Source: Mumia sp. Pv4-285
Lineage (GTDB): Bacteria; Actinomycetota; Actinomycetes; Propionibacteriales; Nocardioidaceae
NCBI RefSeq assembly: GCF_041320275.1
Contig: NZ_CP162023.1
Span: 1,612,001 to 1,676,000, forward strand
Length of the DNA stretch: 64,000 nt
Direction of reading: 5' to 3'
Under the pieces are notes generated by a model. It did no database searches, had not been told where the DNA came from, and was given only the letters and a program-made list of their open reading frames with translations. Below, in pieces: positions 51,541-56,189 of this stretch. A program made the position numbers and the translations under genes. Positions within the stretch are counted from its first letter, which is position 1. Each line of letters begins with the position of its first letter.

Positions 51541-53256
51541 ATGGACGGCACCGTACTGCTGGCGGCCGACGACACGTTTCGGCTGGACACCACTTTCTCC
51601 GACTACCTGATCATCGCGATCTACTTCGTCTTCGTGCTCGGCATCGGCGTGATCGCGAAGCGACAGGTGTCGACCAGCATCGACTTCTTCCTCTCCGGCC
51701 GGTCGCTGCCCGCCTGGGTGACAGGCCTCGCGTTCATCTCCGCGAACCTCGGCGCCGTCGAGATCATGGGGATGTCCGCCAACGGCGCGCAGTACGGCAT
51801 GCCGACGATGCACTACTTCTGGATCGGTGCCGTCCCCGCGATGCTGTTCCTCGGCATCGTGATGATGCCGTTCTACTACGGGTCCAAGGTGCGCAGCGTC
51901 CCCGAGTTCATGCGGATGCGGTTCGGCACGGGCGCACACCTCGTCAACGCGCTCAGCTTCGCGATCGCCCAGCTGCTCATCGCCGGCGTCAACCTCTACC
52001 TGCTCGCGACGATCGTCAACGTGATCCTCGGCTGGCCGCTGTGGGTGTCGCTGATCGCCGCGGCCGTCGTGGTCCTCACGTACACCACCCTCGGTGGTCT
52101 CTCCGCCGCGATCTACAACGAGGTCCTCCAGTTCTTCGTGATCGTCGCCGCACTGCTGCCGCTCACGCTCGTCGCCCTCCACAAGGTGGGCGGCATCGAC
52201 GGCCTGACCAGCAAGATCACGGACTCGCCGGGCGGGGCGGAGCAGCTGTCGTCGTGGCCGGGCACCAACCTCACGGGCATCGACGACCCGTTCTGGTCGG
52301 TGGTCGGCATCGTGTTCGGTCTCGGATTCGTGCTCTCGTTCGGCTACTGGACGACGAACTTCGTCGAGGTGCAGCGCGCGATGGCCTCGAAGTCGATGTC
52401 GGCCGCTCGGAGCGCTCCGATCATCGGCACGTTCCCCAAGATGTTCATCCCGTTCATCGTGGTCGTCCCGGGCATGATCTGCGCGGTCCTCGTCCCAGAG
52501 ATGATCGCCCTGAAGGCTGGCGACGACAGCTCAGGCGTCCAGTACAACGACGCGATCCTGCTGCTCATGCGCGACCTGCTGCCCAACGGCATGCTCGGCC
52601 TCGCGATCGCCGGCCTCATCGCGTCGTTCATGGCTGGCATGGCCGCGAACATCTCCGCGTTCAACACGGTCTTCAGCATCGACCTGTGGCAGCAGTACGT
52701 GAAGAAGGACCGCGAGGACAGCTACTACACGCAGATCGGCCGTTTCGCGACCATCGGCGCGACGGTGATCGCCATCTTCACCGCGATCATCGCCTCCGGC
52801 TACTCCAACCTCATGGACTACCTCCAGACCCTCTTCGGGTTCTTCAACGCGCCGCTGTTCGCGACGTTCATCCTCGGTATGTTCTGGAAGCGGATGACCG
52901 CCACCGCCGGTTGGGTCGGTCTCGTCTCGGGCACGCTCGCCGCCGTCGCCGTCGCGTTCCTCAGCGAGGACGCGTTCGGGAGTGCGAGCCTGGGCGTGAT
53001 CCCGCTGTCCGGTCAGGGCGCCAGCTTCGTCGCGGCGAGCGCGGCGTTCGTGGTCGACATCGCCGTCAGCATCGTGGTGAGCCTCGTGACGCAACCGAAG
53101 CCTGCGACGCAGCTGCGCGGCTTCGTCTACTCGCTCACGCCGAGGGACCAGCTGCGCGACCCGCTCGCGCACCTGCTTCCCTGGTACCAGCGTCCGACGG
53201 TGCTCGCGTCGATCTCGCTGGTGCTCGTGATCGCCCTGAACATCATCTTCTGGTGA
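51541..53256 (+). CDS. sodium:solute symporter, SGLT-like sugar transporter
   Basis: 571 residues, about fourteen transmembrane helices. Features: 'SIDFFLSGRSLPAWVTGLAF' and 'GAVEIMGMSANGAQYGMPT' of the SSS N terminus, 'YTTLGGLSAAIYNEVLQFFV' (the sodium:solute symporter signature 1), and 'FNAPLFATFILGMFWKRMTA'. Closest in style to vSGLT-type Na+/sugar symporters. ATG at 51541 after GGAGG. A small two-helix protein follows 13 bp later, a common companion of this subgroup. Confidence 0.92.
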   Translation: MDGTVLLAADDTFRLDTTFSDYLIIAIYFVFVLGIGVIAKRQVSTSIDFFLSGRSLPAWVTGLAFISANLGAVEIMGMSANGAQYGMPTMHYFWIGAVPAMLFLGIVMMPFYYGSKVRSVPEFMRMRFGTGAHLVNALSFAIAQLLIAGVNLYLLATIVNVILGWPLWVSLIAAAVVVLTYTTLGGLSAAIYNEVLQFFVIVAALLPLTLVALHKVGGIDGLTSKITDSPGGAEQLSSWPGTNLTGIDDPFWSVVGIVFGLGFVLSFGYWTTNFVEVQRAMASKSMSAARSAPIIGTFPKMFIPFIVVVPGMICAVLVPEMIALKAGDDSSGVQYNDAILLLMRDLLPNGMLGLAIAGLIASFMAGMAANISAFNTVFSIDLWQQYVKKDREDSYYTQIGRFATIGATVIAIFTAIIASGYSNLMDYLQTLFGFFNAPLFATFILGMFWKRMTATAGWVGLVSGTLAAVAVAFLSEDAFGSASLGVIPLSGQGASFVAASAAFVVDIAVSIVVSLVTQPKPATQLRGFVYSLTPRDQLRDPLAHLLPWYQRPTVLASISLVLVIALNIIFW

Positions 53257-53269
53257 GAGGAGTACGCCC

Positions 53270-53554
53270 GTGGCTGACGGCAAGCGTCGCTTCCAGATCT
53301 CTTCCGCATTCGACATCCGGACGATCATCGGCGCCCTGATGGGCATCTACGGGGTGATCCTGACGTTCCTCGGCATCTTCAACGCCACCGACGCCGAGCT
53401 GGCGAAGGCCGACGGGTTCAACGTCAACCTCGTCAACGGCCTGATCCTGCTCGGGGTTGCGGCGGTGTTCGTCCTCTGGGCGTTCTTGCGACCCCTCGTG
53501 GTCGAGGACGTGCCCCCCGAGGTTCTCGACGACCACCAGTCGGGGCCGGAGTAG
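53270..53554 (+). CDS. small two-helix membrane protein, symporter companion
   Basis: 94 residues with helices at about 18-38 and 54-74. The N terminus is basic ('GKRRFQISSAFDIRTIIGAL') and the C terminus acidic. It follows the SGLT-like gene within one operon, with AGGAG before GTG. Similar small proteins accompany actinobacterial SSS transporters; the function is unknown, perhaps assembly or regulation. Confidence 0.75.
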   Translation: MADGKRRFQISSAFDIRTIIGALMGIYGVILTFLGIFNATDAELAKADGFNVNLVNGLILLGVAAVFVLWAFLRPLVVEDVPPEVLDDHQSGPE

Positions 53555-53581
53555 GCGCCCACCGGTCAGTACGGTGCGCGC

Positions 53582-53587
53582 TAGCAT
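53582..53587 (+). promoter_or_regulatory. -10 element of the leuS leader, leaderless
   Basis: TAGCAT, 7 nt before ATG at 53595, so transcription should start at the leader peptide itself. Confidence 0.55.
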
Positions 53588-53594
53588 GGGACGC

Positions 53595-53627
53595 ATGTAC
53601 GGCGAGCTCCTTGTCGAGCCGCGCTGA
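53595..53627 (+). CDS. leuL: leucine leader peptide of leuS
   Basis: A 10-codon open frame reading MYGELLVEPR with adjacent Leu codons CTC CTT at 53607-53612. The start follows TAGCAT by 7 nt, as in other leaderless genes of this window. The last codons and the stop lie in the 5' arm of a perfect 12-bp hairpin, and a second, terminator-like hairpin comes before leuS. This is the layout of a ribosome-mediated attenuator sensing charged tRNA-Leu. Classical attenuators before leuS have been predicted in some Streptomyces; this one is inferred from sequence only. Confidence 0.72.
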   Translation: MYGELLVEPR

Positions 53628-53647
53628 CCCCGACCGGTCAGCGCGGC
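53618..53647 (+). promoter_or_regulatory. leuS leader hairpin 1
   Basis: A perfect 12-bp stem, GCCGCGCTGACC (53618-53629) with GGTCAGCGCGGC (53636-53647), and a 6-nt loop. Its 5' arm overlaps the end of the leader peptide, so ribosome position decides whether it forms. Confidence 0.75.
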
Positions 53648-53669
53648 AGCCCCTCTGTACGAGGGGCTG
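53647..53669 (+). terminator. leuS leader terminator hairpin
   Basis: A 9-bp stem, CAGCCCCTC (53647-53655) with GAGGGGCTG (53661-53669), and a 5-nt loop, followed by TTCTGTGT. It stands 46 nt before leuS and after the leader peptide, where an attenuation terminator is expected. Confidence 0.7.
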
Positions 53670-53714
53670 TTCTGTGTACGGAGCCGTACGTGACGGACAT
53701 TCGAGGAGAACCAG

Positions 53715-56189
53715 GTGAGCATCCAGAGCGGCGAGGCAGCGTCGTACGACGTCCGCGCGATCCAGGACAAGTGGCGCGCGGTGTGGGACGAGCTCCGGCC
53801 CTTCGACGCCGACGGCACCGATGTCGGCCGTGAGCGCCGCTACGCGCTGACGATGTTCCCCTACCCGTCGGGCGACCTCCACATGGGCCACGGCGAGGTC
53901 TTCGCGCTGCACGACGTGCTGGCACGCTACTGGCGCCTGAAGGGCTACGACGTCCTCAACCCGATCGGCTGGGACTCCTTCGGGCTGCCGGCCGAGAACG
54001 CCGCGATCAAGCGCAACGAGAACCCGGCGACGTTCACCTACGACAACATCGAGACACAGGCCGAGTCGATCCGGCGCTACGGCGTGAGCTTCGACTGGAC
54101 GCGTCGTCTGCACACCTCCGACCCCGAGTACTACCGCTGGACGCAGTGGCTGTTCCTGCGGATGTTCGAGCGCGGCCTCGCGTACCGGAAGGCCTCGTAC
54201 GTCAACTGGTGCCCGAACGACCAGACGGTCCTCGCCAACGAGCAGGTCGTGCAGGGGATGTGCGAGCGCTGCGGCGCTGTGGTCACCAAGCGCGAGCTGA
54301 CCCAGTGGTACTTCAAGATCACCGACTACGCGCAGCGCCTGCTGGACGACATGGAGCAGCTCGAGGGCCGGTGGCCCGAGCGGGTCCTCACCATGCAGCG
54401 CAACTGGATCGGCCGCTCGGAGGGCGCTTTCGTCGACTTCGCCGTCGAGGGGCGCGAGTCGCCCGTACGCGTGTTCACGACGCGTCCCGACACGCTCTTC
54501 GGTGTGACGTTCTTCGTCGTCGCCCCCGACTCGCGGATCGCGGCCGAGCTGGTCACGGACGAGCAGCGCGGCGCGTTCGACGCCTATCTCGAGCGTACGA
54601 AGCAGGCGACCGAGATCGAGCGGCAGTCGACCGAGCGCCCGAAGACCGGCGTCTTCCTCGGCGTGCACGCGACGAACCCCGCCACGGGAGAGCAGGTGCC
54701 GATCTACGCTGCGGACTACGTGCTCGCCGACTACGGCACGGGCGCCGTGATGGCCGTCCCCGGTCAGGACCAGCGCGACTGGGACTTCGCGAAGGCGCAC
54801 GACCTCCCGATCATCCGCACGGTCGAGCCGTCGGAGGGATTCGACGGGGACGCGTTCACCGGTGCGGGTCCGGCGATCAACTCCGCCAACGAGGAGGTCT
54901 CGCTCGACGGTCTCGAGATCGAGGCCGCCAAGTCGGCCATCATCGACTGGCTGGAGCAGCGCGGGACGGGAGAGCGAACGATCAACTTCCGGCTGCGCGA
55001 CTGGCTCCTCAGCCGTCAGCGCTACTGGGGCTGTCCCATCCCGATCGTGCACTGCCCCTCCTGCGGCGAGGTCGCGGTGCCCGACGACCAGCTGCCGGTC
55101 GAGCTGCCCTACCTGACCGGCGCCGACCTGGCGCCCAAGGGCACGTCACCTCTGGCGGCGGCCACCGACTGGGTCGAGACGACCTGCCCGCAGTGCGGTG
55201 CTGACGCCCGGCGCGACACCGACACGATGGACACGTTCGTGGACTCGTCGTGGTACTACCTCCGCTACTGCTCGCCGGGCACCACGGACGCTCCGTTCTC
55301 GCCCGAGGACGTGAAGCACTGGATGCCCGTCGACATGTACGTCGGCGGTGTCGAGCACGCGATCCTGCACCTTCTCTACAGCCGGTTCTTCACCAAGGCC
55401 TTGCACGACATGGGTCTGGTGGACTTCACCGAACCGTTCACGGCGCTGATGAACCAGGGCCAGGTGATCAACCAGGGCAAGGCCATGAGCAAGTCGCTCG
55501 GCAACGGCATCGACCTGGGTGAGCAGATCGAGGCCTTCGGCGTCGACGCGGTGCGGCTGACCCTCGTCTTCGCCGGTCCGCCCGAGGACGACATCGACTG
55601 GGCCGACGTCTCGCCCGCCGGTGCCTCGAAGTTCCTCCAGCGCGCGTGGCGCGTGTCGCACGAGGTCGCGAGCGAGCCCGGCACGGACGCGACGGCCGGT
55701 GACGTCGCGCTGCGTCGGACCACCCACAAGACGGTCGCGGAGTGCGAGCACCTCTACGACTCGAAGCGCTTCAACGTCGTCGTCGCACGCGTGATGGAGC
55801 TGGTCAACGCGACGCGCAAGACGATCGACTCCGGCGCGGGCGCCGCGGACCCGGCCGTGCGCGAGGCCGCCGAGGTGACCGCGATCCTGCTGAGCACGGT
55901 CGCTCCGTACGTCGCCGAGGAGATGTGGGCCGAGCTCGGGCACGGGCCCTCGGTGTCGCAGCAGGCCTGGCCGACGGTCGATCCGTCGCTGCTCGTCGAC
56001 GACACGGTGACGTGCGTGGTTCAGGTCAAGGGCAAGGTCCGCGGCAAGCTCGAGGTCTCGCCGTCGATCTCCGACAAGGAGCTCGAGGCGCTGGCGCTCG
56101 CTGAGCCGAACGTCGCCCGGCACCTCGAGGGCGCGGAGATCCGCAAGGTGATCGTCCGCGCCCCGAAGCTCGTCAACGTCGTGATTTGA
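53715..56189 (+). CDS. leuS: leucyl-tRNA synthetase
   Basis: 824 residues, class Ia. HIGH motif as HMGH in '[15 protein letters not shown]'; KMSKS as '[12 protein letters not shown]' near residue 590. The CP1 editing domain spans about 220-420, with '[20 protein letters not shown]' and '[19 protein letters not shown]'. Zinc-knuckle cysteines are seen in '[15 protein letters not shown]' and '[16 protein letters not shown]'. GTG at 53715 is preceded by GAGGAGA. The C-terminal tail ends within a 24-bp tandem repeat. Expression is likely tuned by the upstream leader. Confidence 0.97.

Follow-up and report, generated by a model that had tools for sequence, protein, structure and literature searches.

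Organisation of the leader upstream of leuS

In the window, by which we mean the whole 64,000-nucleotide stretch of DNA analysed, leuS occupies positions 53715-56189 of the forward strand, with a GTG start codon at 53715, and encodes a leucine--tRNA ligase of 824 amino acids that matches the TIGR00396 leuS_bact model at 969.6 bits against a cut-off of 548.4 (E 1.3e-291). Directly upstream of its leader region, on the same strand, lie a 571-amino-acid ORF resembling a membrane transporter (51541-53256; by eye a sodium:solute symporter) and a membrane protein of 94 amino acids (53270-53554); by eye, a similar small protein precedes leuS in locus L103.

The leader itself, also on the forward strand, can be read directly from the sequence. 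It begins with a -10-like element, TAGCAT (53582-53587), and 7 nt further on the ATG of a short ORF, MYGELLVEPR* (53595-53627; ten codons and TGA), in which the adjacent Leu codons CTC CTT (53607-53612) are the putative control codons. The end of this ORF runs into a hairpin, H1 (53618-53647), a perfect 12-bp stem (53618-53629 with 53636-53647) with a loop of 6, whose 5' arm contains the last leader codons and the stop codon and which we propose to be an antiterminator. H1 abuts H2 (53647-53669), a 9-bp terminator hairpin with a loop of 5 (53647-53655 with 53661-53669), and in the window C53647 is the sole base common to the two. The T-rich tail that follows, TTCTGTGTAC (53670-53679), is weak in the window, where most relatives have an unbroken run of at least five T; its bases after H2, TTCTGTGT, hold 5 T of 8 with a longest run of two. 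By eye, the likely ribosome-binding site of leuS is GAGGAG at 53703-53708. An earlier note on this DNA had described the TAGCAT-N7-ATG arrangement, the 10-codon frame, the CTC CTT pair, both hairpins and their one common base, all of which hold on direct reading.

Since the start codon lies 7 nt past the -10-like element, the leader is probably leaderless. The stretch 53595-53680 folds at -51.4 kcal/mol, compared with a shuffle mean of -32.0 (z -5.6; none of 200 shuffles as low). A two-hexamer sigma-70 scan of 53450-53800 found no promoter, and a simple terminator scan called a terminator-like site in the window only via 5 of the pairs. Rfam 15 gave no gathering-level match over the window, and at E<=0.1 on the related loci L010, L198, L200 and L220 it returned only a tRNA, in L198.

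Conservation of the layout across leuS loci

We then searched related genomes for matches to the LeuS N-terminus (E<=1e-40), which were found in 6 of 6 genomes of the genus, 139 of 197 of the family, 83 of 97 of the order and 134 of 246 of the class, these sets overlapping. Thirty loci came with the family search, 80 more of its matches were added and 29 were left out (three of them entering later as L156-L158); the order search contributed 27 new loci and the class search 28, 10 of which were dropped as repeats, giving 155 distinct leuS loci. Because the order and class searches added few loci, families beyond the order are thinly sampled in this set. Among the family genomes listed, those of genus g20 had no LeuS match at this threshold except G129, and may carry a more distant type of LeuS.

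A common layout was identified in 138 of the 155 loci, 130 by pattern and 8 of the remaining 25 by covariance model (E<=6e-15). It consists of TAnnnT, 6-7 nt, a start codon, a short ORF ending in Leu codons, H1, 0-2 nt, H2 and a T-tract. A clear element is absent from 17 loci, among which L149 is doubtful (E 0.02); in some loci without the element (L056, L069, L071 and L158) leuS itself looks leaderless by eye. The arrangement TAnnnT-N4-9-RTG followed by a short ORF with two adjacent Leu codons arose in 9 of 2600 trials with dinucleotide-shuffled 330-base upstream stretches, as against 127 of the 155 real loci, for which the scanned stretches were longer (420-511 bases). A leader with two adjacent Leu codons plus a T-tract was also present in 56 of 80 named contigs, including Nocardioides, Kribbella, Nonomuraea, Actinomadura, Arthrobacter and others, a set that overlaps the other genomes searched and is thus not independent of them. 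Finally, at E<=0.01 the covariance model R1 matched 182 of 296 class genomes, counting matches before genes other than leuS; since R1 includes the window among its 40 leaders, the window's own score (1e-17) is not independent.

In the 130 pattern-found leaders, for which a distance of 4-9 nt between TAnnnT and the start codon had been allowed, just two values occur, 6 nt (98 leaders) and 7 nt (32 leaders). A distance of 6-7 nt between the -10 element and the start codon is what is expected of leaderless transcripts from actinobacterial promoters. A crude scan found -35-like sequences in only 7 of the 130. The last leader Leu codon is CTT in 115/130 and CTY in 127/130; CTT is rare in coding sequence, making up 6 of the 847 Leu codons counted in LeuS N-terminal stretches and, for three genes of the window, 2 of 140, and the preference for it here may reflect slow decoding or a requirement of the RNA. 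The codon two past the last Leu is TAG in 71 and CAG in 27 of the 130, and a single C-to-T change (CAG to TAG) is enough to bring the stop out of H1 to a position immediately ahead of it.

The distances further downstream are similarly constrained. The Leu codons lie 4-6 nt before H1 in 113 of 130 leaders. For the parse, H2 was cut back to the outermost G-C pair and the nearest preceding helix was assigned as H1; the gap between the hairpins is then 0, 1 or 2 nt in 39, 29 and 62 of the 130 parsed leaders (37, 29 and 59 of the 125 that remain without five bad parses). At least 5 T occur among the 8 bases after H2 in 125 of 130 leaders, the broken tail of the window included. We also note a TGYC motif 4-18 nt past H2 in 89 of 130 leaders (from L002 to L166), compared with 9, 3 and 1 of 130 in three intervals further on; this motif sits after the T-tract, beyond the expected release point.

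Covariation of the two hairpins and alternative pairings

Forty leaders were picked for diversity from a pool of 126, from which L018, L045, L090 and L095 had been omitted, and were aligned (A1). In this alignment 95.0% of cells are paired and 11 of 17 pairs show changes on both sides (75 such cells). None of 500 shuffles reached the same or a higher score on any of five measures, and slid versions of the same 40 leaders were only 40-55% paired. Both-side changes occur at 8 of the 10 modelled pairs of H1 and at 3 of the 7 of H2, and because of this covariation we regard both hairpins as real RNA structures. Conservation and compensatory changes among relatives were the check that the earlier note had set beforehand for its candidate leucine attenuator, and the proposal came through it: Leu codons, hairpins and T-tract recur in relatives (138/155 loci), both hairpins covary, and the uniform distance of TAnnnT from the start codon (6 or 7 nt in every pattern-found leader) speaks indirectly for the leaderless start that it had suspected.

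We compared the duplex energies of each leader's own segments with those of segments swapped between leaders, using 125 leaders and 15 combinations, two of which were H1 and H2 as controls; a pairing that is invariant would escape this comparison. The four loci named above and L092, in which H1 is badly parsed or atypical, were omitted here, from the other sets of 125 leaders used below and from an all-pairs scan of 124 rows. The own combination was the stronger for the arms of H1 (92%) and of H2 (86%). For the thirteen other combinations, including those of the trp type and the Leu codons with the ribosome-binding region of leuS, own was stronger in only 37-57% of the 125 leaders. No combination among those tested thus coevolved as a trp-type antiterminator that would exclude the terminator, in line with the doubt on this point voiced in the earlier note. 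In the all-pairs scan, some helices outside H1 and H2 showed many double changes at low pairing (for example 107 at 60% paired, 68 at 64% and 52 at 74%), and the H2 3' arm paired trivially with the T-tract.

A fold had in addition suggested that the leader start, ATGTACGGC, pairs with GCCGTACGT (53684-53692). When the leader start was paired, across the family, with the 40 bases that follow H2, the own pairing was on average 1.25 kcal/mol stronger, yet it was stronger in only 0.56 of the 125 leaders, and this candidate was rejected. A GTACGG..CCGTAC repeat is seen in L002, L004, L005 and L006 of the genus and not in L003.

The same layout before cimA, ilvB and leuA

Some genomes contain a second R1 match, and in eight proteins scanned next to such matches we identified cimA (TIGR00977) four times, ilvB (TIGR00118) twice and leuA (NF002086) once. 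By eye, the cimA leaders carry Ile codons (VQRTAIIIP*, VHRTAIIIN*, VAQALIIG*), the ilvB leader reads VRFDILVLH* and the leuA leader MTNLLLT*, so that the control codons match the gene, with Leu codons before leuS and leuA, Ile codons before cimA and Leu/Val codons before ilvB. An alignment of 16 cimA and ilvB elements (A2) is 95.7% paired, with none of 500 shuffles as high on four measures and 106 of 500 as high on the fifth. The model built from it, R2, finds three elements in the genome of the window, before cimA (4.8e-15; itself one of the 16 in R2), before ilvB (2.8e-6; named by sequence motif) and before leuS (1.7e-5). At E<=1e-5, R2 matches 150 of 197 class genomes, including cross-hits on leuS leaders. 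In 31 R2 elements, nearly all before cimA or ilvB as named by sequence motifs (L229 and L248 remained unnamed by motif), the gap between H1 and H2 is 0 nt in 23 cases, 1 nt in 7 and 2 nt in 1.

The two further copies in this genome lie outside the window, both on the minus strand. The first, L200 (about 1564-1642 of that locus; G000:C1 3036763-3036841), has the leader MHRVTGVVISQRV* before cimA (TIGR00977), and the cimA leaders of its relatives carry runs of Ile codons. The second, L220 (G000:C1 3053633-3053714), is ilvB-like, the gene being assigned by motif only, and its leader was read as VRNLLLVRH*. The cimA leaders suggest that citramalate synthase is controlled by isoleucine through the layout of the leuS leader. 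A literature search on a cimA leader of this layout found no report, its only return being a paper on an archaeon.

Ribosome position and a proposed mechanism

The effect of ribosome position was modelled by folding the 125 leaders with the A-site codon and the following 9 nt masked. H1, counted when at least 6 of its pairs formed, was present in 125 of the 125 with no ribosome, in 125 with the ribosome at the third-last codon, in 124 at the next codon, in 115 at the last Leu codon and in 31 at the stop codon. H2, with at least 5 pairs, was present in 122, 125, 125, 124 and 125 of the 125 in the corresponding states. Because H2 folds in every modelled state, base pairing alone gives no switch of H2. 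Furthermore, since the stop codon lies 18-47 nt before H2 in all 125 leaders, a ribosome that has finished the leader should mostly not block H2 itself. With a base-pairing switch lacking, the constant contact between H1 and H2 remains as the candidate basis of control, and we infer that H1 blocks termination by abutting H2.

Under this scheme, the first transcribed base would be the A of the leader's start codon, and the 10-codon leader would be translated at once. With enough Leu-tRNA the ribosome would run through to the stop codon and, with its leading edge about 9-10 nt beyond the A site, would there cover the 5' arm of H1; with H1 prevented, H2 would fold at the T-tract and transcription would stop. 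When Leu-tRNA is short, the ribosome would halt on CTC or CTT and leave H1 largely free. H1 could then fold right up against the first base of H2, and its stem would prevent closure of the H2 base within the polymerase, resulting in readthrough into leuS. The anatomy, the conservation, the covariation, the codon bias, the spacing, the lack of a coevolving alternative among those tested and the modelled effect of the ribosome on H1 and not on H2 are directly supported; from these we infer that transcripts start leaderless in this organism, that the ribosome stalls, which way control runs and that H1 acts sterically on H2. That the element is an attenuator of some kind we consider highly likely, and a ribosome-mediated transcription attenuator of leuS working by the full mechanism above is our favoured reading and a reasonably probable one.

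For the step in which the abutting hairpin blocks termination, the arguments seem to us evenly balanced. In E. coli, termination is reported to be about 90% with a stop codon 28 bp before a terminator and to drop below 10% when that codon is moved to 5 bp, and the last 2-3 bp of a terminator must reportedly close (PMC4824070); by analogy, a stable hairpin in contact with H2 would act as the ribosome does there. Against the step, H2 folds beside H1 in the energy model, and hairpin clusters have been reported to induce termination at operon ends (PMC8355165). In S. coelicolor, codon changes in the ilvB leader are described as without effect, and those in the leuA leader as having an effect not consistent with classical attenuation (PMC1262725), a point against simple ribosome control at both genes. 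We also counted against our reading the 17 loci that lack a clear element, the weak tail and few Leu codons in most species of the genus, and a survey whose tally of predicted intrinsic terminators for a Nocardioides genome was only 30 (PMC2965389).

A broader proposal may be put forward tentatively, and we would place it somewhat short of an even chance. It holds that this is a distinct mechanism, in which an antiterminator hairpin abuts the terminator (0-2 nt) without competing for bases and the finished ribosome removes the block; that a single module would be reprogrammed across Actinomycetes by its control codons alone, for leuS and leuA (Leu), cimA (Ile) and ilvB (Leu/Val); and that the rare CTT would set the sensitivity of the leuS leaders.

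Alternative explanations

Two alternatives invoke other base pairings. In a classical trp-type attenuator, stalling would permit an antiterminator pairing with part of H2 that our tests missed. Streptomyces leuS leaders have been termed classical attenuators with antiterminator and terminator hairpins (PMC1262725), a strictly invariant pairing is invisible to covariation, and some of the helices outside H1 and H2 do have many double changes, albeit at low pairing (60-74%). The Leu codons can pair with the H2 3' arm in 95% of cells, but this pairing shows a single double change among 124 sequences, includes G-U pairs and has the wrong polarity, because a ribosome past the codons would free it rather than block it, and we rejected it. 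With H1 and H2 the only tested combinations that are stronger in own than in swapped sequences, we regard a trp-type switch as unlikely. Translational control of the LEU-element type would have the Leu codons pair with the ribosome-binding site of leuS and a stalled ribosome free that site, as has been described for the LEU element of leuA (PMC1262725). Although CTCCTT is complementary to AAGGAG, and GAGGAG stands at 53703-53708, the Leu codons bind their own downstream region no more strongly than swapped ones (own stronger in 0.50 of 125 leaders), and a terminator and T-tract intervene in most loci; we rejected this sequestration and consider such control very improbable.

Two further alternatives accept both hairpins and dispute what they do. 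If H1 aided termination, the pair would be a double-hairpin terminator that lowers leuS expression or stops read-in from upstream, with no sensing of leucine. The side-by-side folding of H1 and H2 in the energy model would suit this, as would the hairpin clusters reported as intrinsic terminators (PMC8355165), but it leaves unexplained the fixed Leu codons before leuS and Ile codons before cimA, the constancy with which the Leu codons stand 4-6 nt ahead of H1 (113/130) and the -10-like element 6-7 nt from the ORF, and it appears improbable to us. The last alternative concerns only the genus of the window, and is compatible with a ribosome-mediated attenuator in the family at large: H1 and H2 would persist in a decaying copy in which leucine control is slight or lost. 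In five of the six species of the genus the leader has two Leu codons or one and the tail TTCTGTGT (two Leu codons in the window, one in L004, L-H-L in L003), whereas the sixth, L007, has LLL and TTTTT, and the cimA and ilvB copies in the genome of the window have runs of six T. On the other hand, H1 and H2 are intact in five species, L003 shows a compensated change (CCACGC/GCGTGG for CCGCGC/GCGCGG), and H2 has 9-10 bp here. The genus copy of the leuS element looks weakened; that leucine control has become slight or been lost with it is a minority possibility, though one to be taken seriously.

Relation to known attenuators

Classical attenuators were predicted before leuS in S. coelicolor and S. 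avermitilis in 2005, as were leaders with terminators before ilvB in Streptomyces (PMC1262725), and an RNA-seq study of S. lividans TK24 in 2021 describes a leaderless leader peptide, LeuL2 (MRAVRLLLSEPR), before leuS, followed by a hairpin and uridines (PMC8079986). By eye, exactly MRAVRLLLSEPR is also encoded at L198 and L199 (genus g55, probably Streptomyces), which were found with R1; the model covers the window element, which is among its 40 leaders, and these two loci, which are not. Use of a leaderless leader peptide, which the earlier note had taken for the novel part, was therefore already on record for S. lividans leuS (PMC8079986). The Streptomyces element resembles that of the window in its gene, the order of its parts, the Leu codons followed by ..EPR* and the hairpin; as described, LeuL2 has three Leu codons and a uridine stretch, compared with two and a weaker tail here. 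Since LeuL2 is published and is encoded in loci found with R1, the window element can be placed with the Streptomyces leuS attenuators and, judged by its sequence, is very probably a leucine-sensing switch of the kind reported there.

The attenuator published for Streptomyces is thereby traced into Nocardioidaceae, Kribbella and many further Actinomycetes. The element gains significance from the fact that the family has been termed classical (PMC1262725), yet in the leaders compared with the window no competing structure was seen to coevolve. What is new here is that only H1 and H2 coevolve in the swap test, together with the modelled ribosome states, the constant abutment of H1 and H2, and the reuse of the layout before cimA and ilvB. 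Should a terminator prove to be switchable by a hairpin that abuts it, other attenuators will have escaped searches in which overlapping helices are required.

Enteric trp-type attenuators combine control codons matched to the gene, a leader peptide and a terminator before the gene. The window element has all three, but its control codons lie 4-6 nt before H1, outside its arm, and no mutually exclusive antiterminator was detected. The LEU element before leuA shares with it a leader with Leu codons in the same phylum, and is described as a pseudoknot with pairing of Leu codons to the Shine-Dalgarno sequence (PMC1262725), whereas the window has a terminator and its Leu:SD pairing does not coevolve. 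Finally, the ilvB (ilvBHC) leader of Actinobacteria, including IlvL of S. lividans, is likewise a leaderless short leader with a terminator before the gene; it differs in its Ile/Val/Leu codons and in serving a biosynthetic gene, and R2, although derived from cimA and ilvB leaders, also finds the leuS leader of the window (E 1.7e-5).
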